Translations under genes and position numbers: made by a program | Assembly (NCBI GenBank): GCA_905221615.1 | Contig: CAJNDT010005866.1 | Span: 248,001 to 312,000, forward strand | DNA from: Symbiodinium sp. CCMP2592 | Taxonomy: Eukaryota; Sar; Dinophyceae; Suessiales; Symbiodiniaceae | Length of the DNA stretch: 64,000 nucleotides | Direction of reading: 5' to 3' | Notes under the pieces: generated by a model | Seen by the model: the letters and a program-made list of their open reading frames with translations, nothing else | Databases searched by the model: none | Told to the model about the DNA's origin: nothing | Shown here: piece by piece, positions 2,063 through 62,340 of the stretch | How the letters are laid out: the number at the start of each line of letters is the position of its first letter | How positions within the stretch are numbered: position 1 is the first letter of the stretch

Positions 2063-2088
2063 AACTGCAGGCTGTTTGGATCCTGCAG

Positions 2089-11501: not shown

Positions 11502-14500
11502 TCACAGTTGGAGCGAGGCAAAAGGCCTGCTGAACATGGCCAGAGAACGACAAGCCTGTCGGCTCGAGTAGTCTCGAAGCAGTTGCTGCCCCCGTTTCAG
11601 AAGCTCGAAATCAGCCCCAACAATCAACCCATCACAAGGAAAGGTAAAACCAAGACCCCGACGATCAAGTTGATGCAGAAACAATCGAGAGAACCCGAAC
11701 TGCTTGACAAAAATCCGAAGTGCTTTGCGAACCAGTCTGAGCTGTACAGAGACCGGTAGCCTAGGTACTGGAAGCGGAGCCTGAACACTGATCCACTGGC
11801 TCGTAGAGCCACTCTGTACAGGGAAGCGCGCCTTCCCATCAATCACAAGCATGGCTAGCAGTTCGAGCCAGCTGATCGGATAGACAAAGTTGGAACTAGC
11901 ATCCTGCGCCAATAAGAACTGGCAGACATTGACTACGAAGTCAGCCGGTAGCCCCGAGCATTTCGAGGTCGTGACATGTTGCCAACCAACAGGCAGCTCA
12001 TCAGCAATGTCAACAGTTCGCGGCAAACCCAGCGGAAGAGCATCCTCAGGGTCGCACGGCACAGCTGCACCTGAAGCGACAGAAGCACGCACAGGAGCAT
12101 GGCCGCTCGTAATGTCGGCGATGCCGCAGTAGATGCTACGAAGTGCACGAAGTCTGGCGGCCTGCAGCTGAAAGTACTGTGTGGCCTGGCTGTGGGCCTT
12201 TTGCAAAACCAGTGGTCGATTGAGATTGCAGATGCCGGCAACTGTATCAGCGTGTTGGTTCCAGACTGCAAGCCATTCCTCGAAGGGGCCGTCACATAGC
12301 TCTCGATCGAGATGTGAGGGCGTGTGTTGGACCTGAACCAGGTCCGGCTCCACGTCCGCCAAATGTTGCTCAATCTGATGCCATAAGTCAGCGTTGTGCC
12401 AAGAATCATCAACCCGGCCTCCTTCAACCAGGCTTCGAAGCTGGGCCGCCAAAGTTTCAGCATCACACCAGATGACGGCAGAGCATCCAAATTTTCGCAC
12501 CCAAGCGACAGCTGCCAGAAGCGCAGACAACTCGGCTCTGGGAACAGTCTGTAGCAGGCCTGCGAGAGGTCCACAGGCAACGATTGCACCAGAGCTGGCG
12601 TTCACTACCCCCCAGGCTGCCAGGGCAAGATTCGGATCCTCAGGTTGGCTGCAAGAGCCGTCAGTAAAGAGGTGTTGGCAAACACCCTCGGCAGGAGCTG
12701 AGAGAAACGACAGAGTCTGATCCTCCAAGTGGTGCAGCTGATTGCGCAATACCGTGGTAAAAGGGTTTAGGGAGGGCAGGAGATGATGAGTGAGCGCACG
12801 AGGTAGGGTATTCCACTCTGCAACAACCCAGGAGTGAGCTGCACGGGCAGTGGCAAACCGTGGGCAAACACAAACCCGATGAAAAGCGTCATCAGGCAGA
12901 TTGCACTCGACGCAAAACCCACTCTGTTCTAAGTCAAACTTCGCCTGAGACTCTCCAAACATATTGGATCCGCTCTGAAGCGCCGCAACCCTAGACCTAG
13001 TAACCTGAGAAAGGCTGGGCCAATCAAGCATGACCAAACCGGGGTCAATACTGTCAAGATCCTGCATTGTCTGCCGGTGTCGATGCATGAGAGCCAGATG
13101 CTTAAGCCACGATCGCTCAGCAGCGGCACGCAGGGTGGGCAAAGGAGTTTGCAGCAAGTCATGACGAAGGCCTTCATCATCGACAATGAAAGGCGGAAAG
13201 AGAACTCGCCAGTGGAGCTGGTGCAGAAGGGTGAGCAACACCGAGAATGGACCCGAGAGTAACTGACCATGAAACCTGGACATAAAGAGTTGCCACAAGC
13301 CCAGGACCTGAGGTTGTTTGCCACAGACTCGGCGAAACGTACAGAGACAATCCCACAGCTGATAAAATCCAGGATCGACCTTCAGGACACCAGACAAGGT
13401 GAGCCGGAGAGACGGACTCTGCCCACTGCACTGAAGCTTCAGGGCCCGAATTGCTTTAGTACGGAGGCGTTGCACAGTATCATCGGGAACTAGGCAACAA
13501 GCCGCGTCATGAAATGCGTTTTGCCAGAGCTTGGCTGGGAGCACTCTAAGTTTGAGTGACAGCGGTGCTTTAGAGCACTCCAGGCGGCGAAAGATCGGTT
13601 CGAGAGCCGTGCAGCGCTCTAGCAAAAACCGGCTGGGAGCACAGGGGCCAAATGAAAGTACCCCGCCAAGTTCACGGCAGGCGGCAACGGTGTTTAAACC
13701 CAGCTCCCGAAGGACCCTTCTTTGCACAGCATCGGTAGACCACACAAAAGTTTTGGAGCGGTCGAGCTCAAGACCGAGTCCATCACAAAAGCATTGTGTG
13801 GCATTGAGAGCATGGACAACAGAGTAGGCGGTATCGCCATGGCCGAGGAGATTGTCGACGTAAGACAGACTCCGAATAGAGGGAGTGAAGACCTCAAGGT
13901 ATCGGTGATAAAGGAAATCACAGATGCACATGGCAACGACACTCAAAGGGCAACCTTCGGGGAATCCGCGTGTGGAGCCTATGGCTTCGCTGACACAGCC
14001 ATGGACAACAAAGCGGCGTTGCATTCGGCACAAGAAGTTGGACCAAGGGCAGAGGACACAGTCCGGGATGCCTAGCCAGCGCGCCGCATGGAAAAGCGGC
14101 TCGCGAGGAAGGTTGTTGAAGGCCTTGACGAGGTCAGTGCTGTAGCCATTCATTGGCATTGAGCCCTGGACGGCCGTCTCAAGACACGCTTGCAAGCCCA
14201 GCCAGATTTCAGCCGGTTCGTGGCCTGGCAGAAAGCCAAAGGCGCCATCAGGCATAAAGCCTCGGAGCCATTGTAAAAGCTGTCGAGCACGAATGCCGCT
14301 CCAGGTGCGATAAATGACACTGAACAATACGATGGGTCTATATCCCTCAACGTCAAGTTTGCCGTTTTTCTTGTCGAGGGCGTGGACAAGGCCTAGAAGA
14401 AGTTGCTCAGGCCAAGCAACGCCGGCCTCAATGGCGGTGAGCAGCGACAACAGTTCCTCGATGCGCGGGCGAGGCATGTGCAGCAAATCCTGTTTGGCAT

Positions 14501-16589
14501 AGCCATCAGGGCCACGGGCAGCATAAGGCCGAAAACGCGAGACAGCGGCAAGCCATTGTGTGGTGGTGATCGGCTGCAAGGAGCACTCACGTCGGGGCAA
14601 GAAAGCCCTGGTGAAGCGTAACAGCCTTTCCCACTCAGCAGGTGCAGAAGTTTTGTTCCAACGCCGAGACCAAACTTTGACGAACTCGGCATGCACTTCG
14701 GAAGGTGTAGAAACAAAATGGATTTGCTCAAGCTCTGAGTCAACCGAGAGGGGGACAGAGCCGCTGATGCGGCAGGTATCCGAGGAAAGAAGGGCTATGG
14801 CAACCGGCTGTCCGTCCAGCCGCCATTCAGAGTGACCAGAAGTCACAAGGTTGGAGTCCACATGAAGAGTGCGGTCATCTTCATCGCAGGCCAGAACCCC
14901 ATAGCAGCGAGAGGCAACCAGCAAATCAACATGAGAACTAGGAGCTTCACGGAGCTCCTGAAATAACTGCTTGCATGTGGCATCGTGCCGTTCACGAAGT
15001 ATCTTCTGTCTTTTATGAATGTGCCACCCTTCGAATTTGCGGAAGTTGTCGCGAAAGTCACTGAAAATGATCAGAGCAAGGCCGTAGTGAGGAACCTGGT
15101 CAGGCAATGTGCGAGGGCTGCCGGAGTGCTGGACCGGCCGATTGGTCCACCACGCATGAAAACCAAGGTGGAAGCCCGTGGCATGGCGGATCGCAGCCCA
15201 CAGGGAGCCACGGTATTCAAGTGCTTGCTCAGAAGAAGCCCCCTTCTTTAATGCATGACAGAGACTCTGAAGCCGCCGTAACTGTTTGAACCAGCGGTGA
15301 ACTTCCTTCGACACAAAATCATGCCGTAGAGCCTCTTCGCCTGCACGGCTAGACCGAGCACAGGCCACGGGAGTAGCCTTGAGAACAGGGGTCTTGAGTC
15401 TGGCACGGCCATAGCAGGAGCTAGGCAGTCGACCCCCGGGCACCGACACAGAACCATTAAGACTGTGTTCAAAGAGGCGGGCATGTTGGGCATAGAAAGT
15501 GGTGCTGTCACCACTGAGCGGCACCGAAACATGAGCCTGCGCATGAAAGCGCTCCAGTGCAATCTCCGACCAAGGAATCTCGGAAGGGAGAGGCCAAGCC
15601 CAATAGGCCTCAGCACTGAGAGCAATTCGGAATTGAGCACCTACGGTGGAGTGCTCCATGAAGACGTCCTGAACTGAAGAGGCTGTGCACAGCGAGGCGG
15701 CCTCAGGTGACAGGAAGATGTAGTCTCGTCTTGTGGCTCCTTTACAGGTCGGCCGGATGGGAGAAGCCCATCGCTGCCAAGCGAGGTCTTGGATGTCAAT
15801 CCATCCAGCCTGTTTCCAGAGACTTACCTGCAACAGAGAGTCTTGGTCAGCATTGAAGTCACCAACAATGGCTCTAGGACCAGCGCGTCCAAGCACAACC
15901 TCCTGAGTGAGGGGGGTGAGGAGGGCATCAGTGGATGAAGAGGCTTGGGCATGGTTTTGGCTGTAGCCATAGACATTGGCGACCAGCAACGGAAAGCCTG
16001 GCACCAAGTGTTGAACAAGTTGGATCCGGCCTGAGCTAAAGAGGTCTTCAGGCCAGCAGACTCGGACTTCATGTGCAGGCCAGTCGGACATAGAGAGGAC
16101 CCCGGTCCAAGCTCCAGCCCAGTCGCTATGGGCTCTCAAGGGTGCAGGAGCACCAGACAAGGTCCGAAGGCAGCGGTGTTGGGCCTTGCCAAGATGCTGC
16201 AGGGTTTTTTTGCAGCTAGGGAACGTGACTGCTGACAACTGGGTCTCACTTAAACAGTGAATTCCGATTCCTTGTTCGATGAAAACGGCTTCTTTGCCAC
16301 GCAAGCCTGAAGGATTGGATGTGGTGAGCCAGAACGTGTCGCCTGGACCAGGATTGGCTGCTTCGCCCACTCGAGGATGAAGACAAGCAGTGTGGTCGGC
16401 CTGCACCGATGGCAGGCAGCAAAACAAGCAACTAAGCCAAATGAGAACGCTCCCAGGGAAAAGGCCAGCCCTGGAGCCCGAAGAATGGAACTGGGTCGCA
16501 CAACGGCGACGTGCAAGCCAAGAGAAGTCCACTAGAGAGGGGAGCAGCCCAGCCCCACAGTGAAGCAATCCAATGGCCAAGCAGAGCAA
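11502..16589 (-). CDS. LINE ORF2: endonuclease, reverse transcriptase, RNase H
   Basis: 1695 residues. It nicks target DNA and copies the element RNA into the genome by target-primed reverse transcription. In order: a hydrophobic N-terminus; a motif Gly-Glu-Ala-Ala-Asn-Pro-Gly-Pro at 75-82; an apurinic-type endonuclease at about 85-325 (Glu115, GDFNAD 243-248, RRDYIF 287-292, a final Glu-His-Ser 312-314 where Ser-Asp-His is usual); reverse transcriptase at about 680-960 (RGPDG 692-696, catalytic Asp819 in STDLVKAFN, FPEGCPLS 876-883, YVDN 910-913); a CX2CX7HX4C knuckle (Cys1226, Cys1229, His1237, Cys1242); and RNase H (Asp1310, Glu1353, Asp1376, Asp1448). YVDN in place of YxDD is odd: it may be normal for this lineage or may be a defect. 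The start is the first ATG, 54 bp after the ORF1 stop. Confidence 0.93.
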   Translation of the reverse strand: MLCLAIGLLHCGAGLLPSLVDFSWLARRRCATQFHSSGSRAGLFPGSVLIWLSCLFCCLPSVQADHTACLHPRVGEAANPGPGDTFWLTTSNPSGLRGKEAVFIEQGIGIHCLSETQLSAVTFPSCKKTLQHLGKAQHRCLRTLSGAPAPLRAHSDWAGAWTGVLSMSDWPAHEVRVCWPEDLFSSGRIQLVQHLVPGFPLLVANVYGYSQNHAQASSSTDALLTPLTQEVVLGRAGPRAIVGDFNADQDSLLQVSLWKQAGWIDIQDLAWQRWASPIRPTCKGATRRDYIFLSPEAASLCTASSVQDVFMEHSTVGAQFRIALSAEAYWAWPLPSEIPWSEIALERFHAQAHVSVPLSGDSTTFYAQHARLFEHSLNGSVSVPGGRLPSSCYGRARLKTPVLKATPVACARSSRAGEEALRHDFVSKEVHRWFKQLRRLQSLCHALKKGASSEQALEYRGSLWAAIRHATGFHLGFHAWWTNRPVQHSGSPRTLPDQVPHYGLALIIFSDFRDNFRKFEGWHIHKRQKILRERHDATCKQLFQELREAPSSHVDLLVASRCYGVLACDEDDRTLHVDSNLVTSGHSEWRLDGQPVAIALLSSDTCRISGSVPLSVDSELEQIHFVSTPSEVHAEFVKVWSRRWNKTSAPAEWERLLRFTRAFLPRRECSLQPITTTQWLAAVSRFRPYAARGPDGYAKQDLLHMPRPRIEELLSLLTAIEAGVAWPEQLLLGLVHALDKKNGKLDVEGYRPIVLFSVIYRTWSGIRARQLLQWLRGFMPDGAFGFLPGHEPAEIWLGLQACLETAVQGSMPMNGYSTDLVKAFNNLPREPLFHAARWLGIPDCVLCPWSNFLCRMQRRFVVHGCVSEAIGSTRGFPEGCPLSVVAMCICDFLYHRYLEVFTPSIRSLSYVDNLLGHGDTAYSVVHALNATQCFCDGLGLELDRSKTFVWSTDAVQRRVLRELGLNTVAACRELGGVLSFGPCAPSRFLLERCTALEPIFRRLECSKAPLSLKLRVLPAKLWQNAFHDAACCLVPDDTVQRLRTKAIRALKLQCSGQSPSLRLTLSGVLKVDPGFYQLWDCLCTFRRVCGKQPQVLGLWQLFMSRFHGQLLSGPFSVLLTLLHQLHWRVLFPPFIVDDEGLRHDLLQTPLPTLRAAAERSWLKHLALMHRHRQTMQDLDSIDPGLVMLDWPSLSQVTRSRVAALQSGSNMFGESQAKFDLEQSGFCVECNLPDDAFHRVCVCPRFATARAAHSWVVAEWNTLPRALTHHLLPSLNPFTTVLRNQLHHLEDQTLSFLSAPAEGVCQHLFTDGSCSQPEDPNLALAAWGVVNASSGAIVACGPLAGLLQTVPRAELSALLAAVAWVRKFGCSAVIWCDAETLAAQLRSLVEGGRVDDSWHNADLWHQIEQHLADVEPDLVQVQHTPSHLDRELCDGPFEEWLAVWNQHADTVAGICNLNRPLVLQKAHSQATQYFQLQAARLRALRSIYCGIADITSGHAPVRASVASGAAVPCDPEDALPLGLPRTVDIADELPVGWQHVTTSKCSGLPADFVVNVCQFLLAQDASSNFVYPISWLELLAMLVIDGKARFPVQSGSTSQWISVQAPLPVPRLPVSVQLRLVRKALRIFVKQFGFSRLFLHQLDRRGLGFTFPCDGLIVGADFELLKRGQQLLRDYSSRQACRSLAMFSRPFASLQL

Positions 16590-16643
16590 AAGATTGCATG
16601 CGCATACCAGCCTGCCCCGGAGGGAGCAGCTGGGCCGAGCTAG

Positions 16644-19600
16644 TCATTCAGCCCGGTGTTTTTTGGCCAACAAGGCTTCAAGACGGCTACTTTGCTCCTC
16701 GAGCTGTTTGTGAAGCTGCGAAGAGATCTCAAGGCCGAGGGAGCCGACAGCGGTTTGCACACACTTCTGCACAGATTCTGCTTGTTGGGACAGATCTTGC
16801 TTAACCTGGGAAAGCTCGGCTTGCTGAGCGGTGACTGCAGTTTGCATGGTGGACACCTGCTGGCCGAAAGATTGGAACCATCCCTCGAACTTTGAGCCCT
16901 GAAGCTTAAGCTCCTGCACCGTGGACTCGAGACGAGCAAACCTGGCCTCATGGGCGGATGACTGGTCAAGTGTGGCTTGGGTGGTCTCGGAAATCTGCTT
17001 GTGGACAAGTTCCTTGACCCCAGAGGCAAGTTCGGTGCGGAGTTGCTCAATCTTCGAGCTGGCGGCAGCTGAGGAGGCAGTAGGCGGCCCCGGCGCAGGA
17101 AGGCCAGGAGGGGCCCGAGCAAGGGCCCAAGGATCCAGACCGTTGGCCCAAGGGTCAGGGCAGGTATCATCATCATCATTCAGGATGCTGCGCTTTGTGC
17201 GATTGGAAGCCGTGACTGCAATGGGAGCAGCCTGCAAGGCTGTGTCGCGGACTTTGTGCACCAACACGAAGGAATCGCCGCAAGCTAAAGCCGGGGCTGG
17301 CGGGTCCTCACATGCTCCGACGAGCCAGGCAGAGCCTTCAGAATCCCTTCGGCCAGGTTGTAAAGGCTTTGCGGCCCACTTCCAACCCCGCAGCAAAGAA
17401 TGCAAGTGCTTTCGCAGGCATCCAAAGGGCAATGGATGGAGGCGGTAATGTGCCTTGACAAGAACCTTTGAGAACTCACAGCCGGGACGAAGGGCCTCGA
17501 AGACGGCTTGTTCATCAGCATCTCGGACTCGGAGCCCAAAACGTTTCCCTAGCCGAGCAATTGCTATGGCCTTGGTGCATGTGCGTAGACTGTGAAGAGT
17601 CTTGACATAATCTGCCTCGGGTAGCCAGACAACGGCGTAGCCAGGGTGGGGCCCCGAGCCCCCGGGGGCTCGCGGTTCAACGTAGAAGCCTCTGGTGACA
17701 ATCTTTTGCAGGTGCATCAAAGCAGAGGATGGGACCCGGATGAGGCAGTGGAAAACCTGAGCGACGGGTGCATCGATGCGCCCACCTTCGAGCTTGGCCC
17801 ATTGCCGCCCCCAAAGGTCGAGAATAAGACGATCGACGACATCAGCCTCCTCAACTGCGGGATGGAAGCGGCCGCAGTTCTGTGCACAGGCTTTATCGCC
17901 ACAAAGCGAAAGACCAGGGATGTGCTGCAGCAATGCCTTGATGGGTCCTTCGGTAAGTGTGGCCCAATCCAGGGCAAACTCATCCCGGTACACCGAGATT
18001 TTGCAGGTGATGGTCTCAAGCTGGTGTGCTTCCTCAATGCTTGCGTGCGAGAGCTGCACTTGCTCGTCACCAACCTGAATCAGCGAGCCACGGATGAGTA
18101 TGGCTTCCTCGGTGGGGCCATAGACTGCTGGAAACTGCAAAGGGGAAACCGGCGTGCTCCCACAAATGTCGGCCGGGAGCTCTGTAACGCAAACGAGGCC
18201 CAAAGCATCAACACTCAGAGACTGGTGGGCTTGCAGAAAAGGAAGAGCCTGTTGAGCACTGCAGAAAGCAACACCTTGCGCCTGATTGCAGACCTCAGCA
18301 AATGCAAGTTGTGGCAACGGGCGGCCATCCTCAGTAACAAAAGAGCCAGAGGTGATGAGGAGCTTGGTGGGGTCTACCTGCAAAGGCCCAGGATTGGACT
18401 TGGAGTCCTTGTCCTTTTTCTTTTTTGCCTTGCCATTGGCAACTGCCGTCCCGAATTTCGCATGAGCCTTGGCCTCTATGTGGGCTTGAAGTTCATCCTG
18501 CTGTATCCAGCGAAACATCGAGCTAGGCTGAGACCCGAGCTGCTTGAGCTGAGGCCAGGGGTGCTTCAAAGCAAGTGCCTTGGCAATAGGACCTGCCCCG
18601 ATTTTTTGCACGGCAGCCCGAATGCGCTCATCAGTGGCAGAGCTGGGCACTCCGCGCTCAGCAAGAAGCTCACCCAGATGTTTGGCCTGTTCGGCAGAGA
18701 GGCCACCGGCGGCAAAATGTGTTGCAGGGGCATTGCGATGCTTGGCTAGCAAATCAGCAGCCCAGCTGGACGCATCTGACGTTTTCTCAGCCAGAAAGGC
18801 GATGGCATGTTGCAAAGCAATGGCACCACACTCCTGTGCCTGAGCCTGGTGGAACCAAGTGCAAGAATCAAAGGTTTCAACCTCCCACTGAAAGGCTCCC
18901 GCAAGGATACGGCACGAGGTCTGCGCCGGCTGAAAAACGCGCAAAGGGACACCATCAAAGTAGTATGCCGCAACAGTGCCAGGATGCACGATTCGAAAGC
19001 CGAGGCAAGCCCAGTGCCCCGAAGCAGCAAAGACCGCAGCAACACGCTGAGAAGTGCACTTCAAGCGAAGGCCAAGGGATGCCCAGAGGGGGGCATGCGC
19101 AAGAAGAGCCGACACAAAGCTGGGTGGCAAACATAGTGCTTTGGATGCAGGGAGACTGGCCCCAACCTCCGCTATTGCCGCATCGAGCTGGCCGTCTGAA
19201 GCTGGTAGCAGAGAGCTTGAACCAAGTGCAGGACCTGATGGAACGGGGTCGACGGCTTGAAGTTTGCGCATGATCCGCACAATACACGGGTTGGTTTCCT
19301 CACACGGGTGTAGAAAGGCATCGCCAGGGAGCGCCCGACCATTTTGCCACACAGAAACGGAAAAGCCAGGGCCAAGGCCAGCACGCATCTGTGAAATGAC
19401 CGTACCAGCAGTCCAGGGCTGGAGTTCAACAGAAAGCTGGGAGACCTTGGTAAGCTGTGTGCATTGCACATGCACTGGGCTGCCATTGAACAACGAAGGC
19501 ACCGGAAAGACATCAAGGGCTTCTTGCAAGAGCCGGCGCTGAAGCTCAACAATGGCATCCGTTGGGGCAAGGCTCGACTTCACATGAAAGTGTTGCGCAG

Positions 19601-20816
19601 CCCATTGTCCAAGTTGAGCAAACACCCAAAGTGAATGCATCGGTGCACTGCAGCTACCTACGAGGCAGAGCCCAGCCTGGAGGCCTAGGGGAAACCGAAT
19701 CCTAGGGGAGAGGGAGTTCAAAAGAGCAGCTTCCTTCGGATGCAGGAACCTGGGCTCAGACGAGGCACGGGAATAGACCCAAACTTCACCAAAACCACCC
19801 TGAAGCAGATGCTGAACCGAAAGACCACGGTCACGACATGCGCAAGGGCAGGGCCCAAGTGAGTTGCCCCAAGAGTGCAGTGCAGGAGGAGCCTGGCCCT
19901 TATCGTCTAGGATGGCCACGGCTTGTGGCGGCTTAGAATCCAGGAGTGTCTGCTGCAACTCAGAAGGCCACCGCAGGGCTGCTTCCTCTGGATCTGACCA
20001 GACGGGCCACTCGCGGATGGCATCCTGAATGACAGGCGGCACCGAGGAATCGGGAAAAGGCCTCAAAACCAGTCTTGGCATACCCGCAGGGACTAGACAG
20101 CACCACCACCGGTGACGACGAGACGCCCAAACTGTTCCTAGCTCAAGCTCAGCAAAAGCAACCTGAAGGCCTGCTTGCTTAGCAAAGGAGTGCAGCCTGG
20201 TAAGCGGAGCGCTTTGGTTCATGATCGCCGTGGTGCACTCTAGGACATAGCAGGCAGCATGCAAACGCCAACCAGTGTGCAACACATATGTGAGAACCTC
20301 ATCTGCTTGTGCAACATCTACCAGGCTGGCTGCAATGGTCACCGTTCCTGCCATATTCTGGTATTGTTCAAGGATCTGGTGAATGCTGAGCTGCACATCA
20401 CGCGACCTCACATCCCCGGTGAGAGCGCGACTGCCATTGGCTTCCAATGTCTCCGTTGCAAGACGATTCTTATCAACGTGAAGCAAGGCTGCCCCCTGTA
20501 GTATGTGAAGCTCCTTTGTCATGCCTCCCAAACCACTGCACAGATCCACAACCATCCGGAATGAGTCAAACAGCACTGGCTTAGCCGCAAAAACCTTGGA
20601 GTCTGCTTTCCGGTGCAACAATGCTTTGCCTTCCTGAAAGCCACTGAATTGAAGGTCATACACGGTGTACTTTCCTGCCTGGAGAGTGTCGCCCGACAGA
20701 AGAAAGCGGTCGTTCGTCCACAGAGCCTGTCCCTCACAAGGCTCCACACTCGTAATAAGGATGACACCTGACCAGTATTCAGAGACTTGAAGTTTAGCGA
20801 AGTTAAAATCACACAT
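16644..20816 (-). CDS. LINE ORF1: methyltransferase-like, ULP1-like protease, CCCH motif, coiled coil
   Basis: 1390 residues, far longer than typical LINE ORF1 proteins. Residues ~85-405 resemble a C5 cytosine methyltransferase: VVDLCSGLGG 89-98 (SAM-binding motif I), SRRHRWW 232-238 (motif VIII-like), RFLHPKEAALLNSLS 356-370 and VGSCSAP 386-392 (motif IX/X-like). The catalytic Pro-Cys of motif IV is replaced by Ala-Ser-Leu-Val-Asp-Val near 163-168 and Glu-Asn-Val has become Glu-Cys-Thr (193-195), so base methylation is unlikely. Residues ~560-680 resemble a ULP1/adenain-type cysteine protease, with His601-Trp, Asp621, Gln657 and Cys663-Gly in the family's order and the Gln six residues before Cys. 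A CCCH-type motif (Cys972, Cys977, Cys981, His985) and a C-terminal coiled coil (~1250-1385) could bind nucleic acid and oligomerise. The start is the first Met; the frame is unbroken. Confidence 0.85.
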   Translation of the reverse strand: MCDFNFAKLQVSEYWSGVILITSVEPCEGQALWTNDRFLLSGDTLQAGKYTVYDLQFSGFQEGKALLHRKADSKVFAAKPVLFDSFRMVVDLCSGLGGMTKELHILQGAALLHVDKNRLATETLEANGSRALTGDVRSRDVQLSIHQILEQYQNMAGTVTIAASLVDVAQADEVLTYVLHTGWRLHAACYVLECTTAIMNQSAPLTRLHSFAKQAGLQVAFAELELGTVWASRRHRWWCCLVPAGMPRLVLRPFPDSSVPPVIQDAIREWPVWSDPEEAALRWPSELQQTLLDSKPPQAVAILDDKGQAPPALHSWGNSLGPCPCACRDRGLSVQHLLQGGFGEVWVYSRASSEPRFLHPKEAALLNSLSPRIRFPLGLQAGLCLVGSCSAPMHSLWVFAQLGQWAAQHFHVKSSLAPTDAIVELQRRLLQEALDVFPVPSLFNGSPVHVQCTQLTKVSQLSVELQPWTAGTVISQMRAGLGPGFSVSVWQNGRALPGDAFLHPCEETNPCIVRIMRKLQAVDPVPSGPALGSSSLLPASDGQLDAAIAEVGASLPASKALCLPPSFVSALLAHAPLWASLGLRLKCTSQRVAAVFAASGHWACLGFRIVHPGTVAAYYFDGVPLRVFQPAQTSCRILAGAFQWEVETFDSCTWFHQAQAQECGAIALQHAIAFLAEKTSDASSWAADLLAKHRNAPATHFAAGGLSAEQAKHLGELLAERGVPSSATDERIRAAVQKIGAGPIAKALALKHPWPQLKQLGSQPSSMFRWIQQDELQAHIEAKAHAKFGTAVANGKAKKKKDKDSKSNPGPLQVDPTKLLITSGSFVTEDGRPLPQLAFAEVCNQAQGVAFCSAQQALPFLQAHQSLSVDALGLVCVTELPADICGSTPVSPLQFPAVYGPTEEAILIRGSLIQVGDEQVQLSHASIEEAHQLETITCKISVYRDEFALDWATLTEGPIKALLQHIPGLSLCGDKACAQNCGRFHPAVEEADVVDRLILDLWGRQWAKLEGGRIDAPVAQVFHCLIRVPSSALMHLQKIVTRGFYVEPRAPGGSGPHPGYAVVWLPEADYVKTLHSLRTCTKAIAIARLGKRFGLRVRDADEQAVFEALRPGCEFSKVLVKAHYRLHPLPFGCLRKHLHSLLRGWKWAAKPLQPGRRDSEGSAWLVGACEDPPAPALACGDSFVLVHKVRDTALQAAPIAVTASNRTKRSILNDDDDTCPDPWANGLDPWALARAPPGLPAPGPPTASSAAASSKIEQLRTELASGVKELVHKQISETTQATLDQSSAHEARFARLESTVQELKLQGSKFEGWFQSFGQQVSTMQTAVTAQQAELSQVKQDLSQQAESVQKCVQTAVGSLGLEISSQLHKQLEEQSSRLEALLAKKHRAE

Positions 20817-20885
20817 GGCGACAAGGATCTCCCGAGGTTCGGCTGTAAACTGGCTCCACTACTGAGAAGACTCGGGCCCAGAGCT

Positions 20886-45000: not shown

Positions 45001-45600
45001 TTCGCTGGGCTCGCCAGCCCAGCGAAGACTCTAAAAAAGCATCAGTGCCAACTCCTTGCGAACACCTCCGGAAACCCCTCGAGGGGAAGCCCGCCTCAAT
45101 GCCATGCAAACCCTTGTTGAAGTACTCTGAAAGCCAAAAGCCTAGGCCTAAAGTCCTTAAGGGACCCTGTAGCAGGACCTGTTCTTCCAGTGTCAGCCGA
45201 AGAAGGCAGGCCTCCGCTTCTCAGCTTGGAATCTGAAGCGGCGGAGTGCAGGTCTCGCAGGCTTGGGCTCCACTTGTGGCCCAAAAGACCTGCCTTTTCG
45301 AGGAACCACGTATACAGTAACCGTAATAAGGAACTAGCCCTACAAAGGTAGGTCATTTTCGGCTACAGGCAGGGCTTCCGGATTCCGTCTTGCCAGCCTC
45401 GGGCCCCAAACTCTGGCAAGCCTCAGTAGGACTTGTCCCGAGCCCTCCTTGCGCAGCATCCAAGGCAAGTTTAACTGCGTCACGGGCCCGCAGTGCAGCC
45501 CTCGCTAGCTCGTGGCACCCCGGCGCAGTTGAAGATTTTTTGGCATGGCACGCTGTGGGGCATGTGTGTCAATGTGAACTCTTTCGGCTGAGAGGACTGC
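40026..45600. other. No supported gene; GA and CT microsatellites
   Basis: (GA)n at about 41231-41274 and 41889-41913, and (CT)n at about 42033-42058. Several unmatched open frames of 60-150 codons occur (for example 41343-41756, 42663-42899, 44096-44548), and other frames in the same places are open too. Confidence 0.45.
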
Positions 45601-45608
45601 AAACGGTG

Positions 45609-45653
<45 letters not shown>
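45609..45653. repeat. (GA)n microsatellite upstream of the SWEET gene
   Basis: About 18 GA units ending in GACAGAGACAGAGACAC, roughly 100 bp before the SWEET start codon. Confidence 0.95.
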
Positions 45654-45657
<4 letters not shown>

Positions 45658-45748
45658 CATTGTCAGAGGCTTGGAGTGGCTTGGCCTCGGCTCGAGTCTT
45701 CTCCCGCCTCCGATCGCTGCTGTTGCCCCCCCGCCCCGGACCCTCGCC

Positions 45749-46681
45749 ATGTTTGCAGACCTAGTCTTGGAGTCGCTGGCAACTTGCCTAGCTTTCTTCT
45801 TCATGACTTCCCCCTTGACTCAAGCGATTGACGTCATCAGAACACCCGCAAAAGTGAAGCACGTCAACCCGGTGAATCTCCTGGGCTTCTTGCTGAACTG
45901 CGTGACCCAGCTAGGCTACGGGATCTTTATGCCAATACCCCCAATGATCCGATGCAATGCCTACGGCGTCGCCGTAGGACTTTTCAGCATCGCGACCTGT
46001 TGGTATTTCGCTCTAAAGAATGCGAGTGCAGAGCGGTGGAACATGAAGGCCTGCGTTGGCACCATATCGGTTTGCGCATTATCTGGCTTGATCTTTGCAT
46101 ATGCTGGGCTGGGGGGTGGAGGGGCCGCCGCGAGGGTTGGTAGTCTCGGCATCCTTGTGTCTATCATCATGTATGCGGCTCCCCTCTCAGTCTTGCGGGA
46201 GGTTCTTCAAACAAAATCTTCGAAGGCCTTGCCGGGGTCACAAATCTTCATGGGTTTCCTGAACAGCCTTTGCTGGTTCGCTGTGGGCATTCGCCGTCAG
46301 AAGATACCGGTCTGGGTTCCCAACGTGATCGGCATGCTCCTGTCACTCGCGCAGCTGGCGCTGATCTTGAAGTTCCCAGACAGTGCAGAGCATGGCATCG
46401 AGGAGCGAAGACAGGAGTCGCTCCTTCCTGTCGCAGTAAGCTTCCAGAATGACGCGTCCAGCGGGAAGGACTGGCAAGGTACCAGACCAGAGCGATACAG
46501 TTTGGGGGATCCAGGAGAATGCCGTCGAGTAAGAGGAGAAGCAGTTTGTACAGCTCTGGGGCCTTTGCGTAGTGTGAGGAGATGCAGAGGCGTCACTTAT
46601 CGACTGTGCTTGTTCTTTTTGTGTCGTCTGTGTTTGTGTTCTGTCTCTCTCGAAACCGTCAAGCGAGTCCGCTTCCTGTAA
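45749..46681 (+). CDS. SWEET: SWEET-family sugar transporter, single exon
   Basis: SWEETs are membrane proteins that move sugars such as glucose or sucrose down their gradient. The frame opens earlier (45671), but the ATG at 45749 starts just before the first membrane segment, giving 310 residues. Two MtN3/saliva repeats are visible. The first (~5-93) has Pro22 in a TSPL context and NAYG at 70-73. The second (~130-212) has YAAPL 142-146, the QTKSSKALP loop 154-162, Asn172, Trp176 and PNVIG 191-195. Seven membrane segments fit the family. The ~100-residue tail is polar, then Cys/Leu-rich, and is not conserved in SWEETs as far as I know. It might be partly intronic if a donor lies near 46430. 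In symbiotic dinoflagellates such carriers are candidates for sugar export; that role is inference. Confidence 0.9.
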   Translation: MFADLVLESLATCLAFFFMTSPLTQAIDVIRTPAKVKHVNPVNLLGFLLNCVTQLGYGIFMPIPPMIRCNAYGVAVGLFSIATCWYFALKNASAERWNMKACVGTISVCALSGLIFAYAGLGGGGAAARVGSLGILVSIIMYAAPLSVLREVLQTKSSKALPGSQIFMGFLNSLCWFAVGIRRQKIPVWVPNVIGMLLSLAQLALILKFPDSAEHGIEERRQESLLPVAVSFQNDASSGKDWQGTRPERYSLGDPGECRRVRGEAVCTALGPLRSVRRCRGVTYRLCLFFLCRLCLCSVSLETVKRVRFL

Positions 46682-56681: not shown

Positions 56682-56698
56682 GGTTTACATATATATAT

Positions 56699-56729
<31 letters not shown>

Positions 56730-56993
56730 CATACATACCTACCTACCCACATACATGCATGCATACATACATACGACATACACATCATGTATGTGCAGTA
56801 TGTGTACATGCACATACAGTATATCTACATATATAAATACACGGACATATGCATGTACATATCTGTGTATATATGTATATATGTACCCAGGTATGTGCGT
56901 CTGTATGTATGTAAGTATATATGTATGCAGCATGCATGTATGCATGCATATATGTATGCGTGTGTATAAATATCATATATATATATATATATC
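56682..56993. repeat. (TA)n / ACAT microsatellite
   Basis: TATA and ACATACAT runs. All frames across it are artefacts. Confidence 0.9.
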
Positions 56994-56997
56994 CCAG

Positions 56998-57141
56998 GTG
57001 GTTCTCGCAGACAGGAAGCAGAGGAAAATTGAAAGTAATATGAAAGAGGGTCGGGACGGGTGGGTGAAACAAAATTTCGCTCAAGCTGTAACAGCTTTCG
57101 CCAAAATGGCCACGGAGTATACAATCATTCGACATGAATCG
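56998..57141 (+). CDS. Candidate internal exon next to the DIRS-type element
   Basis: Bounded by a CCCAG acceptor (AG at 56996-56997) and a GTGAGT donor (57142). Exactly 48 codons, phase 0 on both sides, no stop. The composition is ordinary for a folded protein and the sequence differs sharply from the microsatellite before it. No family recognised. If real, the DIRS-type element sits, antisense, in or next to the following intron. Confidence 0.45.
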
Positions 57142-57260
57142 GTGAGTCAATCCCCTGACCGATTCGGTGTTTAAGTGAGATATGAAGTTGTCACTTCGCA
57201 CAAACAAGTGTGTGCTACACGACAACGAAATTCTCACACAAAGGCCATGAATCCCTGGCT

Positions 57261-57415
57261 GAAGCGGAGGTGTTTTCCAACTGCTTCCGCTTCGGTGGCG
57301 TTAAGTCTGCGCTTCGATCTTACAGATCGAAGTAGTCGATCTTACAGATCGGTGTTGATCTTTCCTTCCGCTGGGAGGACCGACTGGTTCCCATCGAGTG
57401 TGGTCGCGTCCTCCC
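57261..57415. other. Cluster of hairpins downstream of the last DIRS-type ORF
   Basis: GAAGCGGA (57261-57268) pairs with TCCGCTTC (57286-57293). CTTCGATCTTACAGATCGAAG (57312-57332) is a 9-bp-stem hairpin, and CGATCTTACAGATCG (57337-57351) repeats its core. GGGAGGAC (57373-57380) pairs with GTCCTCCC (57408-57415). On the minus strand these lie just after the stop at 57445 and could be part of the 3' untranslated or terminal region. Confidence 0.6.
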
Positions 57416-57444: not shown

Positions 57445-60400
57445 TTAACGTAACATCGAAAGCAAATGGTCGTGCAATCGGTGAATTTCGGGTAAGTCGG
57501 AAAAACCCGTCGAGGAAGCAAAATGAATATCTCCTATGATCTTCGCAGCTCTACTCGTCAGTGCATTGAGAGGTAAATCGAGTTTAGTCCAGCTCTCAGA
57601 CTCCGGAACGTTCTCAAAGCGGCTGATCCCGTCGGAGATGTTCGCCTTGGTGGGTACCCGCTCAAGTCGATGTGCAATACTGCGTCGATTGTGCCAAGTC
57701 CAATGTGCCGCAATGAGGCAATTCAAAGGTTGATGTTTGCCAACGCCCTTGAGCAGGGCATGTCGGGAGGCTTCGTTGTCACAGCATTGAACGTAGAACT
57801 GATCCAGCCATGGTTCGAAGACCAACGGTGCCAGTATCGCTACCCATGCTTCGAGAAGGTAGATGAAGGCCTGGTCGGAGGCAAACTGTCGAACAAGTAG
57901 TGAAGGCAGACGACCCTGGAAGTAGGCGGCGGTTCGCACGTCACCGTGGTGGAAGCAAACCGCCGCCCAGCCGTTTTCGATGTCGGACGTCGACTTCGAG
58001 TCCCAATTAGGGATGTCGCTGTCTCCCGGCTTGTAGATGGTGGAGCCAAGCCGGAAGTATGCGTCCGTATAGATGACGCTGTATGTCGGCTTGGTCGGTG
58101 TGCGTGGTATCGTCATTGGTCGGCAGTGCTGTATGATGTCCTTGAGGGCTAGTAGTGATGAGCGTGTAGGCTTGTCGAGGGCATGTGAATAGGAGTGAGC
58201 TCGAGAATAAAGTGCCTTCAAGGCCGCTCGACCCACCTTGCCAAATAGTCTCCCAGTCAGGAAGTTGCACTTCCCGGCCATCTTCCTGGCTTGCTCGGGG
58301 GACAGTGACGAAGTAGTCAGGTGTGTATCGATTTGTCTACACATGTTTTCGACTCTCTTCGGGCAAGGTGTGAGGACCAAGTTGTTGTCGTCGGATGAAA
58401 TGATGACTCCTTGTATACGATGTGCTGTTTGCGGTGGTTGGCGTTTACTGGGCTTCATCGATATCTGGAGACATCCGTTGTACTCCTCGAAGGACTCGAA
58501 GCTGCCTTTGGCGAGGTCGGAGTCCTCCATGGATCCGTAGTCGTCGACGTAGTGCATGGCCGGAGACAAGATCATCGTTCGGCTGCAGGCCACGAGAATG
58601 TCGCCGAATCGATTGTAAGACCAGACACTTGCGGCCGATCCGAAAAGAAGGACATTGTGGCTCCACAGCGTTGGGCCGTCCGGGGTCAACAACATCACAT
58701 AGGCTTCTCGAGGATCACGAAGTGGAAGTTGGCGATAAGCCCCGTCGTGGTCATGTCCCCAAACAGACAAGGGTTTCGAGTGATCGGTTCGGAGTGTGGC
58801 GAGTCCCAAGGAAATAAAGTGGTCGGGTGTGTGATGGTACGGCTGGTCGTGCATGGTGCAGGTCGCATTGTGGCCACTCCGGCGCCAATCCTCGCCCCGT
58901 CTGACTTTGTTGTTGCCGTCGCTGCCGGTCTGTTCGATGCTGAAAGCCATGGCGATGTAGGGATCGGAGTGTGGTAGTGGTAACAGGGTTCGATGTTTCC
59001 CTTTGGGTGGTACCGTGGCGGCACGGGGCCACCAGTCGGGGGCCTGATACGGTCCGTTCATGCGTCCCATGTCGACTTCGGCCAGGATTTCGTCCAGCAT
59101 CAGTTCCCAATGTTCGTCGATGGAATTCTTCTCGATCTTGTCGTGGATGTACTGTCGGTTCTTGTCACCAAACTCGTCGATCGGTGTGGGTTCGAGGTAT
59201 TTAAGGTCCTGTCGAACGTGCCAGTTGATGCCTGGGGTCAACTTGCCCATCAAGGGGAAACCTTCGGAGAGTTCGCGATAGATCAACTCTGTTTGTGGGT
59301 ATTGAATCAGTCGTAGTAAGTGAACGAGTACTGGGATCTGTGTGACCGAATCCTTGTGTCGATATGCTCGTTGTACGTGTTCTGGGAGTGTGTGATACCA
59401 AGCCATGGTGTGATCCTCCATGTCTTCGACGAGCTCGCGGATGTCATCGATGATCGCTTTCTGGAAATCTACGAGTGGGTGAAACACATGTCGATGTTGT
59501 AAACACCACTCGAGGGTAGGATCCAGCGTCTTCGGGGACAAGTGTGTATCACGATGAAGTGCCCAATCGAGGTGTTCCGTCCAGGAGAACTGAGGCATGT
59601 AGTCGTGTGTCGTGGAACGTGGAGGAGGACCGAAAGGGACTTTGTGGTGTAGCCACAAGGCAGTAATCTGCTGGAGAGCCGAAGATCGTGGTGTGTCGGG
59701 GATGGTCGCGTTGACGGTCCCGAGAAGCAGCAGGAACATGATCCAAACTGCCGTGGGGAGATGCCAGGAGTTGCCCAAAGCCACGCATCGTTTGGTTTCG
59801 TCGCCCCGGGCGAGTGTGGCGGTGTAGTCCAGCGGTAGACCCTGAAGTTGTTCTCGAAGTGTAGCAGGTGCAGTAGACCATGTGCCATCGGGTAGTGTCA
59901 CCAAGAACTGCTCCTCGTACTGCCACACAGGGTATCGACGATTGTCCTGTTCCCATCGTTGCCACGCGTCATGTGAAGTCGAGCGATCTCGGAGATGTTT
60001 AGGCGGGTCTCGGCCCGTAGTCGATGTTGATGGTGTAGTCAAGCAATGGAAAAGTTTCTTGTCGTTATGGAGACATGGGGGAAGGGAGTAGTCCTTCGTC
60101 TTGATGTGTGCCTGCAATTCCGTAGCGATCGGGTTGTGTAGGCGGTGCCATTCTCCCTCGAGTTTCCAGTCCAAGGACCAAGGTGTGAGTCGTGGGAGGC
60201 GTTCTTCGATGATGTTCCAAGGGATCGATGTCCACCACAGCCGCTTCCGGTGCATGATTCCGGCGTCGGCTGCATCGACGACTATGGGGTCCATACTCAG
60301 TGGCGATGTGAGCTCAAGCAAGTTGTCGTGAACATCTGGGTGAGGGACCACGTTCTCGAAGATCGTTTCAATGGCGATGCCGGTGAAGCGTTTGCGGAGT

Positions 60401-60768
60401 TGGTGTTCGATGCCCACCATGTGACTGAAAAGCCAACCAGATGTGCCCTCGGAGCCTGGGGGTCGGTGACGCAAGTTCGAAAAATCGGGGCAAGGTGGTC
60501 CAGCGGTGATCACCATGATGTATTGTTGATGGAGAGTAGCAGCATCGATGTGTTCCGCGACGGTCTCGATGTCGAACTGTGTCACGTCCCCCATTTGTAT
60601 GGATCCGAAGTGTTGTGAGGTAAACTGTGCACATTCGAGGTCGATCTCCCAAGACAGGGTCAGGAGAATGTGCCCATTGATTCGTCGTAGTGCTTCGGAG
60701 GCAATCCCGATACCATCGAAGAAGGACAGGTGCACCACTGGCAAGGTGCCGACCAGCTCGTAGCACAA
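57445..60768 (-). CDS. DNMT3-like C5 cytosine methyltransferase fused to reverse transcriptase and RNase H
   Basis: 1107 residues. Residues ~10-345 form a cytosine-5 methyltransferase with all key motifs: FDGIG 17-21 (SAM), GPPCPDFS 90-97 with the nucleophile Cys93, ENV 138-140, RKR 174-176 and GNSWHLP 332-338. The spacing around ENVV and the HRKRLWW segment is closest to DNMT3. Residues ~590-850 are a reverse transcriptase (Asp673 in DHDGAY, YVDD 740-743). RNase H follows (Asp902, Glu973, Asp997, Asp1046). No catalytic residue is missing, so the copy could be active. The N-terminal enzyme may methylate newly made element DNA; that is inference, in line with a published report that dinoflagellate retrotransposon methyltransferases act on CG sites. 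Confidence 0.93.
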   Translation of the reverse strand: MCYELVGTLPVVHLSFFDGIGIASEALRRINGHILLTLSWEIDLECAQFTSQHFGSIQMGDVTQFDIETVAEHIDAATLHQQYIMVITAGPPCPDFSNLRHRPPGSEGTSGWLFSHMVGIEHQLRKRFTGIAIETIFENVVPHPDVHDNLLELTSPLSMDPIVVDAADAGIMHRKRLWWTSIPWNIIEERLPRLTPWSLDWKLEGEWHRLHNPIATELQAHIKTKDYSLPPCLHNDKKLFHCLTTPSTSTTGRDPPKHLRDRSTSHDAWQRWEQDNRRYPVWQYEEQFLVTLPDGTWSTAPATLREQLQGLPLDYTATLARGDETKRCVALGNSWHLPTAVWIMFLLLLGTVNATIPDTPRSSALQQITALWLHHKVPFGPPPRSTTHDYMPQFSWTEHLDWALHRDTHLSPKTLDPTLEWCLQHRHVFHPLVDFQKAIIDDIRELVEDMEDHTMAWYHTLPEHVQRAYRHKDSVTQIPVLVHLLRLIQYPQTELIYRELSEGFPLMGKLTPGINWHVRQDLKYLEPTPIDEFGDKNRQYIHDKIEKNSIDEHWELMLDEILAEVDMGRMNGPYQAPDWWPRAATVPPKGKHRTLLPLPHSDPYIAMAFSIEQTGSDGNNKVRRGEDWRRSGHNATCTMHDQPYHHTPDHFISLGLATLRTDHSKPLSVWGHDHDGAYRQLPLRDPREAYVMLLTPDGPTLWSHNVLLFGSAASVWSYNRFGDILVACSRTMILSPAMHYVDDYGSMEDSDLAKGSFESFEEYNGCLQISMKPSKRQPPQTAHRIQGVIISSDDNNLVLTPCPKRVENMCRQIDTHLTTSSLSPEQARKMAGKCNFLTGRLFGKVGRAALKALYSRAHSYSHALDKPTRSSLLALKDIIQHCRPMTIPRTPTKPTYSVIYTDAYFRLGSTIYKPGDSDIPNWDSKSTSDIENGWAAVCFHHGDVRTAAYFQGRLPSLLVRQFASDQAFIYLLEAWVAILAPLVFEPWLDQFYVQCCDNEASRHALLKGVGKHQPLNCLIAAHWTWHNRRSIAHRLERVPTKANISDGISRFENVPESESWTKLDLPLNALTSRAAKIIGDIHFASSTGFSDLPEIHRLHDHLLSMLR

Positions 60769-60843
60769 TGTACAAGTTCGGTCGTGTAACTCTGTCGGTC
60801 GATGGTCGGCTCCAGGGTCGGCAGACCCTGGGCCGTGCTGTCC

Positions 60844-62313
60844 CTATTTCTTGCCGGACTTACCGGCTTTGCCCTTCTTGCCGGCGCCTTTCGAGCCTTT
60901 GTCTCCCTTCATGTTCCAAGGAGGTCGTGGTTGAGATACATGAGGAGCCGGGTTCAGTGGCAGGGTCGGTGATGGTGTCGGAGTAAGGAAAGTCGGCGTC
61001 GTAGGAGATGTCCATGCTTGTGTCGGGGTGGCTTGCCAAGAAGACATGGCCTGTGTAGTCCACGTAGGTGTCGAAGGTTGCCATGGGCGCCATTGTGTGG
61101 TCGTATTGGACCAGGATTGTCGATATCGACGTCCTTGTCCTGGAGGTGACCACTTCTGCTGATATCCTTTTCCTTTCCCTTTCGGGGTTTGTTCGGCGCC
61201 TTTGCCGAATCGCTGCTTCTTCGACAGCGGTTGTTGTATGACGTCGTTGACTCTAGTGAGGTCGTTGATGAGGTCGTCGGTGATCGCTTGGAAGGTCTCG
61301 TTAGATCGCATGCGCATGGCGATGTCCCAAGAGAATTCTTCCCATAGGCTTTTAACGTTGTTAATGCGTTGTGAATGTTTGCGTACGAGACGAATGAACC
61401 AATCGACGTATTTGTTGACGACCGTCTCGGAGGCATACTTGATGAGGATCCATGCCCATCGGATTGCCTCGATCGCGTCTATAAGCATCCATTGTCCTCG
61501 CACATCCCACTCATCGTGTGACTTCTCGGTGATGTTATTGCGCTCGTCGAGGACCAGTTTCTTCTCGTGCGTGTCCTTCTTCCTGGCCGAGTTGATCGTG
61601 TCGAAGCTGGTCCAGATCCGTTGTGACACTATCTCGCCTAGTGCCGTGGCGGTGTACATCTTCGATGTATGGTGCTCGTGATACATCCGAGCGAGCACTT
61701 TCTCCGCCCCGACGAGATTCTTCTCGGGGAACTGTCGTCGTTCGCCGTCCACGGTGATGCAATTGTAATCCTCGACCAGTTTGTTGTAGACACCCGTCGG
61801 GAGAGTCTTGGGGACGACGTCTTTGTCGGTGTGGGACGAAGTAGTAGTAGTCGGGAAGGTCGGGGAAGCTGAAGGTGTCGGAGTTGTTGTAGCAGTATGG
61901 TAAGCGAGTCGTGCAGACTGAGTGAGTACCATCCACTGGGCGGTGAGGGCGTCTTCGTCGGTGTCATCCCCGAGCTTGAACTCCGCGCCCCCTGCCCGAG
62001 CGCCCGCCTTAAGCTTCGTGATCACATCTTTGATGCTCGCGTCATCCTTGAGGTACGTGCCGATGGTCGCATGCGACTTCAAGCCGAGTTTGGCCAAGTA
62101 TCGGGCTACAACGTCTGTGGTCAGGTCGATGCCCGCTAAGTCGGCCGCGTCCTGAAGTGGATTGCTCATGTTCGTCGAGAGATTTGGACTCGGGCAGAAA
62201 TTGCTCTTATGAAGGTCAGGCTGACGTGACATGTCTTCGGTGGCAACTCGAGGTGACATGAGGTCTGCATCGAGCTTTTTGCATTCGGATGATCGGGACG
62301 AAGCCGATGACAC
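60844..62313 (-). CDS. Gag-like protein of the DIRS-type element
   Basis: 489 residues from the first Met. A second Met at residue 49 (codon 62169-62167), ahead of a compact helical domain, is a plausible alternative start. The middle is helical, with a Trp-rich segment near 265-310. The C-terminus is Gln/Thr/Pro/Trp-rich and ends in a Gly/Lys-rich basic tail (Lys-Gly-Asp-Lys-Gly... to Lys-Lys), which would suit RNA binding. There is no CCHC knuckle. The Gag assignment rests on position between recombinase and RT, size and the basic tail, not on a recognised domain. Confidence 0.7.
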   Translation of the reverse strand: MSSASSRSSECKKLDADLMSPRVATEDMSRQPDLHKSNFCPSPNLSTNMSNPLQDAADLAGIDLTTDVVARYLAKLGLKSHATIGTYLKDDASIKDVITKLKAGARAGGAEFKLGDDTDEDALTAQWMVLTQSARLAYHTATTTPTPSASPTFPTTTTSSHTDKDVVPKTLPTGVYNKLVEDYNCITVDGERRQFPEKNLVGAEKVLARMYHEHHTSKMYTATALGEIVSQRIWTSFDTINSARKKDTHEKKLVLDERNNITEKSHDEWDVRGQWMLIDAIEAIRWAWILIKYASETVVNKYVDWFIRLVRKHSQRINNVKSLWEEFSWDIAMRMRSNETFQAITDDLINDLTRVNDVIQQPLSKKQRFGKGAEQTPKGKGKGYQQKWSPPGQGRRYRQSWSNTTTQWRPWQPSTPTWTTQAMSSWQATPTQAWTSPTTPTFLTPTPSPTLPLNPAPHVSQPRPPWNMKGDKGSKGAGKKGKAGKSGKK

Positions 62314-62340
62314 GTCGCCGAGGCGGAAGTCAGTCGAACA

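Follow-up and report, generated by a model that had tools for sequence, protein, structure and literature searches.

Retrotransposons that carry a cytosine DNA methyltransferase (DNMT) have been described in dinoflagellates, among them the classes SymbioDIRS-Dnmt3 and SymbioLINE-Dnmt (de Mendoza 2018, PMC5890265). The main text of that paper describes two orders of open reading frames (ORFs) for SymbioDIRS-Dnmt3, and its authors state that the reverse transcriptase (RT) of these elements aligns poorly with Pfam. Here we analyzed a stretch of 64,000 nucleotides from Symbiodinium sp. CCMP2592 (contig CAJNDT010005866.1, C5004:248001-312000; called the window below). Both published classes are present in this one window. 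The main subject is an element on its minus strand, in which a DNMT3-like enzyme and an RT share one ORF, Pol. The element matches SymbioDIRS-Dnmt3 as far as that class is described in the paper, a point that the earlier note on this DNA had left open. Because the class is already published, most of the novelty of the fusion is gone. We propose, with a probability of about 0.75, that the locus is a young SymbioDIRS-Dnmt3-class DIRS element that uses UAG readthrough, trans-splicing of a leader and restoration of its 5' end from an internal repeat, A2.

The Pol ORF is a single open frame of 1132 codons that ends with TAA. The earlier note had placed the fusion at 57445..60768; this span lies inside the real frame, which extends to 60843. 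The claim that an intact DNMT3-like enzyme is in frame with and N-terminal to a DIRS-type RT is borne out by motifs and open frames in many copies. A hidden Markov model search, named in the note as one that could overturn it, returned a C5 methyltransferase (Pfam DNA_methylase, E 5.7e-9 with the whole Pol ORF and 7.7e-10 with the DNMT domain alone), and the claim stands. All 29 PDB sequences that match Pol at E<=1 are DNMT3A, 3B or 3C, the best at 9.1e-6. The DNMT motifs are found in order, I (LSFFDGIG), IV (GPPCPDFS), VI (FENVV), VIII (HRKRLWW), IX and X, in what we take to be the C5 numbering. As the note had also held, the element is not a Dam-type DIRS: there is no match to an N6-adenine methyltransferase domain after RNase H, and the methyltransferase is C5-type and N-terminal. 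RT and RNase H were recognized by motifs read by eye (GAYRQLP, LFGSAAS and YVDD, then D, E, D, D). A strict three-motif RT regular expression had no match in Pol; its motif A alone was found in 21 of 20,000 shuffles. A search of viral contigs found nothing, five pattern matches in prokaryote genome contigs were not confirmed, and 20 phage records are all about 23-29% identical over part of the DNMT. An AlphaFold2 model made without an alignment was discarded (pLDDT 36.5).

Copies of Pol were collected from the genome (1,098,105,373 bases in 5383 contigs). The best 41 of 2480 first-look candidates were scored, including the window copy. All are 98-100% identical over Pol and lack internal stops. 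The note had named a stop between the DNMT and RT parts as a further way to fail; none was found within the 1132 codons in any of the 30 copies fetched. These 30 copies keep the DNMT motifs, and the DNMT, RT and RNase H motifs are constant among them except for one residue beside one RNase H motif in one copy. With a 120-residue query, 150 of 320 candidates were scored, which yielded 150 matches. Counted by eye, they form groups of about 50 at 98-100%, about 50 at 56-83% and about 46 at 33-42% identity, and frames in the last group reach 1300 codons. The element is apparently a young, multicopy tyrosine-recombinase retrotransposon of about 13 kb with the DIRS order.

Two further minus-strand ORFs, a putative tyrosine recombinase (stop TGA) and a Gag-like ORF (stop TAG), share the reading frame of Pol. 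The match of the recombinase ORF to Pfam Phage_integrase stays below the curated cut-off (E 0.0052 for the whole ORF and 0.0028 for a part), and 'Gag-like' is named from position and the lysine/glycine-rich tail only. The ORFs 5' of the recombinase have 213, at least 648, 454 and 476 codons, none with a family match above the cut-off. The 454- and 476-codon frames overlap and may be one frame that is shifted in the window copy. One of the upstream ORFs (L031, L033; contig C5004 ~312400-317740) has a CCCH-like cysteine/histidine spacing by eye. By eye, TTCCGCCTCGGCGACGT occurs three times between element ORFs: once at window 62312-62328 (minus strand) and twice in L031, ahead of the recombinase ORF.

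The layout is one of split direct repeats, A1-ORFs-B1-A2-B2. The CpG-rich stretch runs on beyond the window end, and the element extends about 6 kb outside. Complete copies measure about 13 kb, with 12,384-12,660 nt between A1 and A2 in 34 pairs. A1 and A2 of the window copy are 97.5% identical over 160 nt. Two B repeats of 172 nt are found in 28 of the 30 copies, in the order B1, A2, spacer (about 70 nt), B2 and unique flank; a single B is present in L001, the window copy, and in L026. The element begins with GTGTAGCAC and ends with TTTCGTTGTC. No consistent target duplication is seen in 23 two-ended copies: if the final C is treated as element, the flanks match over 0-2 nt in 20 copies and over 4-5 nt in three TA-rich places, and if it is treated as flank, over 0-1 nt in all 23. 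A T stands at -4 in 21 of 25 5' flanks, like the end of B. TA microsatellite borders the window copy at both ends (window 56690-56992 and, on contig C5004, just above 317880), and several further copies also lie in TA-rich repeats.

Analysis of the junction between the Gag-like and Pol ORFs suggested how Pol may be made. The junction reads AAA UAG GGACAGCA, and then a predicted stem. In all 30 copies the first methionine of Pol is residue 84, after the S-adenosylmethionine (SAM) motif I at residues 39-46, so a plain AUG start within Pol would lose the cofactor site. When the genome was searched with exact flanks and the stop left free, 65 of 66 places had TAG and one had GAG (reversed-pattern control 0); this pattern is blind to copies with altered flanks, includes some diverged copies and overlaps the copies described next. 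Over the 45 nt after the UAG, variation among the 30 copies is confined to the tetraloop, and the stem is unchanged. Equally stable folds over 45 nt were seen in 1.9% of 2000 synonymous shuffles and in 0.45% of 1117 in-frame Pol windows; over 83 nt from the UAG they were seen in three of 200 dinucleotide shuffles. A subfamily of 72-76% identity keeps TAG, GGACAGCA and the stem in six of seven junctions read. When these six are aligned with the window copy, each row can form the full 12 pairs; in one pair both partners have changed, and in two a single change gives G-U. A shifted partner leaves 22-43% of cells paired, compared with 100%. A still more distant relative (L107, 33% identity) has TAG GGACAGCA followed by an equally spaced stem, with only seven codons visible before its stop. 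These observations suggest readthrough of the UAG into a Gag-Pol product as the probable origin of Pol. The UGA between the recombinase and Gag-like ORFs was also considered as a readthrough site and was rejected: its stem is not unusual, being matched in stability by 47% of shuffles at 45 nt, and methionines are present within the Gag-like ORF itself.

The second element in the window, a long interspersed nuclear element (LINE) of the SymbioLINE-Dnmt class, has a parallel junction. ORF1 and ORF2 are in one frame, separated by UGA CUA. ORF2 encodes EEP-RT-RNase H (RVT_1, E 5.7e-11), and its first methionine is residue 185. ORF1 starts like a DNMT (DLCSGLGG) and has AASLVDVAQ where PPC is expected; its Pfam match (0.12) is below the cut-off. 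It is thus apparently a dead methyltransferase that has lost the PC of motif IV, yet its 1404 codons are open. A relative, L072, keeps the PC in GIPCQGYS (E 1.5e-18). Twenty relatives of the LINE, 18 at 46-52% identity and two at 37-38%, were taken from the upper part of a list of 102 matches (101 of 183 candidates scored). UGA CUA is in frame in 18 of the 20, which amount to 16 distinct junctions; every one of the 17 relatives with 100 or more open upstream codons is among them. The two exceptions, L079 and L094, have TAA with 6 and 27 open codons ahead of it. The junction of L072 reads UGA CUC, and its stem alone is not significant (6.3% and 11.4% of 1000 shuffles). An alignment of 16 junctions, in which L072 was added and L095 and the window row (loop about 4 nt shorter) were dropped, shows changes on both sides in 11 of 11 pairs with 93.8% of cells paired. 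None of 500 shuffles reached this covariation score. In the same 16 rows, the stem begins 11 nt past the stop. This agrees with a type II readthrough signal, which is described in PMC11166343 as UGA plus CUA or CGG with a stem about 6-12 nt downstream. A DNA search with the LINE junction matched only itself in the genome. Programmed readthrough in this genome has its best comparative support in the LINE junctions, which concern the LINE and not the Pol ORF.

Additional features were found in the LINE ORFs. GEAANPGPG near the start of ORF2 (window 16341-16367, minus strand) is not a canonical 2A peptide, which we take it to resemble; if active, it would release ORF2 from an ORF1-ORF2 readthrough product. 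In ORF1, QECGAIALQHA (window 18804-18836, minus strand) is by eye like the cysteine box of an Ulp1/C48-type protease.

The terminal repeats of the DIRS element contain a second unexpected feature. A leader-like 21-mer with three mismatches is located inside A2 in the 3' region, and no such 21-mer occurred in 100 shuffles. We call this form the relic. A1 of the window copy, within contig C5004:317743-317777 outside the window, contains the perfect 22-mer TCCGTAGCCATTTTGGCTCAAG. It is identical to the dinoflagellate leader given in PMC6050394; PMC6616646 gives the same letters without the first base. A leader pattern search of the genome gave 114 places (reversed control 0), of which 100 were listed. 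Among the listed places 34 A1/A2 pairs were assigned by distance, and 32 unpaired places were dropped (27 relic, three of another form and two leader-form). In these pairs A1 is relic in 22 copies, has the leader's 3' bases only in 10 and is perfect in two, and A2 is relic in all 34. Leader-specific bases are therefore found in 12 of 34 A1 and none of 34 A2 repeats (Fisher p 1.5e-4, with copies treated as independent). Direct reading of A1 in 25 copies gave nine leader-form, L013 among them, and 16 relic. Among eight further 5' pieces, seven were readable, two as leader-form and five as relic. A2 could be read in 29 of the 30 copies and is never leader-form. Apart from the leader, most copies show few differences between A1 and A2; A2 of L023 has an indel. 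On the Pol tree of 30 copies, leader-form and relic copies are interspersed by eye. We read the A1-only leader bases as a probable trace of copied trans-spliced RNA; A2 would have served to restore the stretch of A1 that lies 5' of the leader. The partial leader forms would fit cDNA that leaves its template within the leader.

The following life cycle is proposed. Element RNA would gain the host spliced leader by trans-splicing inside the terminal repeat A, which would join the 22-nt leader to CTGTTACAGC. The Gag-like protein would start at its own AUG. A fraction of ribosomes would pass the UAG, aided by GGACAGCA and the stem, and make a Gag-DNMT-RT-RNase H fusion of roughly 1630 residues. 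This fusion could bring the methyltransferase into the particle of the RT, where it may CG-methylate the cDNA. Minus-strand synthesis would reach, or almost reach, the 5' end that bears the leader, and the cDNA may then transfer to and pair with the internal A2. The pairing would restore the upstream part of A1 and yield a circle with a B-A junction, and the recombinase would insert the circle at short T-rich sites. The parts of this scheme read directly in the copies are the shared frame, the lack of an early methionine in the main family, the conserved UAG, octamer and stem, the split repeats and the A1-only leader bases.

With more reserve than for the element itself, we lean on sequence grounds towards a combined picture: the DNMT would be delivered as a Gag-DNMT-RT readthrough fusion, the 5' repeat would record the host leader, and two unrelated DNMT-carrying retrotransposon classes would read through with different signals, of the UAG and the UGA-CUA type. 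If these added layers hold, the enzyme reaches the RT via a minority Gag-Pol fusion. The leader would then be a natural tracer, as each new copy would show how far cDNA extended before transfer. It would also give a sequence record of the 5'-end restoration of DIRS elements, which the papers cited here model from repeat layout. Such a record would be evidence from nature that RNA supplies one part of the rebuilt 5' repeat and A2 the other, with transfer often within the leader. The earlier note was right about a DNMT3-RT fusion in a multicopy element; it missed the lack of a methionine ahead of the SAM motif with the probable readthrough, the roughly 6 kb beyond the window and the leader or its relic in the terminal repeat, because all of them are located beyond its feature.

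Several observations weigh against the proposed reading. The RT is recognized by motif only, as no Pfam, NCBIfam or PDB match covers the RT-RNase H half of Pol. Pairwise pN/pS (ratio of nonsynonymous to synonymous polymorphism), which speaks for the reading, is 0.085 for the DNMT, 0.075 for the linker, 0.049 for RT and 0.039 for RNase H (406 pairs); over the final 1200 nt of the Gag-like ORF it is 0.119 (378 pairs). These values are, however, biased low because copies were ranked by protein score. Even so, it is hardly conceivable that Pol is a chance or dead ORF, with 41 of 41 scored copies open, all listed DNMT motifs in 30 of 30 fetched copies and low pN/pS. At the junction, equally stable synonymous shuffles rise to 7.2% at 60 nt and 4.5% at 90 nt, which makes the stability only moderately unusual. 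The DIRS stem covaries weakly and not significantly: 159 of 500 shuffles scored as high. The hairpin was predicted by folding that models no pseudoknots, so the likeness to a type III pseudoknot signal rests on a hairpin. One of the seven subfamily junctions (L101) has no stop in the frame read. Among seven of the about 46 junctions in the 33-42% group, five have no stop in 85-88 upstream codons, one has UGA (L104) and one has UAG (L107); readthrough is thus not universal among wider relatives, and in the stopless ones the Gag-like and Pol parts may form one frame, or the stop may be farther off. Pol could instead be made by reinitiation, from a non-AUG start or from its own trans-spliced mRNA, the UAG and stem being by-products of the Gag end. 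CUG could in principle start Pol; CTG codons are found a short distance 5' of motif I. In the 72-76% subfamily a methionine precedes motif I, at residue 16 after the UAG, so that an internal start is possible there and the no-AUG argument is weakened in that subfamily; several of the 18 LINE relatives have one 13-30 codons past the UGA. Dinoflagellate polycistronic RNA can undergo trans-splicing, which would allow a separate Pol mRNA. When the similarly arranged Tca2 was tested for readthrough in yeast, the outcome was negative. We nevertheless regard these routes as improbable, since the UAG and frame are kept in 65 of 66 matching places, the octamer and stem spacing are shared at 33% protein identity, no methionine precedes residue 84 in the main family, and the LINE retains its UGA CUA in 18 of 20 junctions.

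The leader bases and the DNMT also allow other explanations. The A1 bases could be an old repeat polymorphism spread by recombination instead of a product of repeated copying of trans-spliced RNA. Ten of the 12 share one partial form, A1 and A2 need not homogenise in every cycle, the tree was judged by eye with no count of events, and the two unpaired leader-form places may belong to either A1 or A2. This explanation is unlikely in our view, as the bases are confined to A1, match the host leader exactly in two copies and occur in copies mixed on the Pol tree, while A1 and A2 are almost identical elsewhere in most copies. As for the enzyme, PMC5890265 puts forward in its main text, in line with what the note had suggested, that the DNMT marks cDNA to pass as host DNA, and reports that isolated SymbioDIRS-Dnmt3 domains methylate CG de novo in yeast. 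That hypothesis fits a Gag-DNMT-RT fusion. The CpG observed/expected ratio is 1.09 in the element, 0.66 in the LINE and 0.70-0.79 in the rest of the window. The contrast between the DIRS and LINE classes agrees with the one published there; the value of 1.09, also to be counted against our reading, gives no sign of methylation decay. Instead of protecting new cDNA, the DNMT may serve regulation, by self-silencing or slowed transposition. This option was named by the authors who described the class, and the absence of CpG loss favors it. Against it stand the position of the DNMT beside the RT in one polypeptide and the de novo CG methylation by domains of the class in yeast, neither of which decides the matter, and we hold a regulatory role to be possible but doubtful.

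Table. Positions of the features of the two retrotransposons in the window.
Feature	Position	Strand	Remarks
LINE	11502..20858	-	ORF1 16644-20858 (1404 codons), ORF2 11502-16643 (1713 codons), one frame
LINE junction stop UGA, then CUA	16644-16646	-	stem downstream
A2-B2 spacer and 3' end of window copy	56992..57064	-	B2 missing, TA microsatellite next
Repeat A2	57065..57220	-	pairs with A1 at contig C5004 ~317878, outside window; the 160-nt match covers 57224-57065
Relic of 22-nt dinoflagellate spliced leader in A2	57095..57116	-	three differences
Repeat B1	57221..57392	-	
Pol ORF, 1132 codons	57445..60843	-	DNMT aa ~35-370, linker, RT, RNase H
Pol RT motifs aa 695-769; RNase H motifs aa 925-1075	within 57445..60843	-	by eye
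Predicted 12-bp stem, one bulge, tetraloop	60807..60835	-	starts 8 nt past UAG
Octanucleotide GGACAGCA, 6/8 purines	60836..60843	-	immediately 3' of UAG
UAG, proposed readthrough stop	60844..60846	-	Gag-like and Pol in same frame; TAG in 30/30 copies
Gag-like ORF, 498 codons	60844..62340	-	lysine/glycine-rich C-terminus; no family match above cut-off
Putative tyrosine recombinase ORF, 528 codons	62341..63927	-	R, K, HxxR, W, Y by eye

Other DNMT genes and neighbors were also noted. A multi-gene unit consists of a C5 DNMT ORF of 1204 codons, an ORF of about 504 codons and the 684-codon ORF at window 2065-4119 (L071, C5004:241001-250000; L073). It recurs in the same order at C280, and DNMT places similar to that of the unit are found at C1473 and C3223. 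The unit may be a repeated gene cluster or a mobile element of an unfamiliar kind. A stand-alone C5 DNMT ORF of about 563 codons (L074) has about 30 further similar places. The window also contains a SWEET-type sugar transporter (45578-46681, plus strand; MtN3_slv, E 2e-22).

The main text of PMC5890265 does not contain 'gag', 'readthrough', 'recoding' or 'frameshift', nor 'spliced leader' or 'DinoSL', and trans-splicing appears once, as a general host trait. It has no mention of the inter-ORF UGA CUA and stem of the LINE. Neither readthrough nor a spliced leader in DIRS, LINE or dinoflagellate retrotransposons was found in a literature survey of titles and abstract openings, which covered few subscription papers.

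In the published account, SymbioDIRS-Dnmt3 shares with our element a DNMT, apparently of Dnmt3 type here too, in a Pol ORF with RT, a separate tyrosine recombinase ORF (putative here), A-coding-B-A-B repeats, many copies and purifying selection (PMC5890265). The LINE resembles SymbioLINE-Dnmt of the same account in having a DNMT-derived ORF1 upstream of an EEP-RT-RNase H ORF2 and in being CpG-poor (0.66); unlike that class, its DNMT lacks the PC of motif IV. A tyrosine recombinase and RT-RNase H are also described for PAT/Toc/Kangaroo and Ngaro (PMC4157794) and DIRS1-like elements (PMC3266345), and the A1-B1-A2-B2 split repeats are shared with PAT and Ngaro (PMC4157794). DIRS1-like elements, as outlined in PMC3266345, have a pol of RT-RNase H-methyltransferase and the order GAG, tyrosine recombinase, pol. 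In contrast, the present element has a C5 DNMT ahead of RT and runs recombinase, Gag-like, Pol, with more ORFs 5'. The Gag-Pol junction is similar to gammaretroviral type III signals, for which PMC11166343 and, for murine leukemia virus, PMC2194720 describe an in-frame UAG, a purine-rich octanucleotide and a compact structure after 8 nt. The Gag-Pol fusion that we infer would likewise correspond to the gammaretroviral readthrough product of these papers. Unlike gammaretroviruses, the element has a predicted 12-bp hairpin and the DIRS order, and is no retrovirus.

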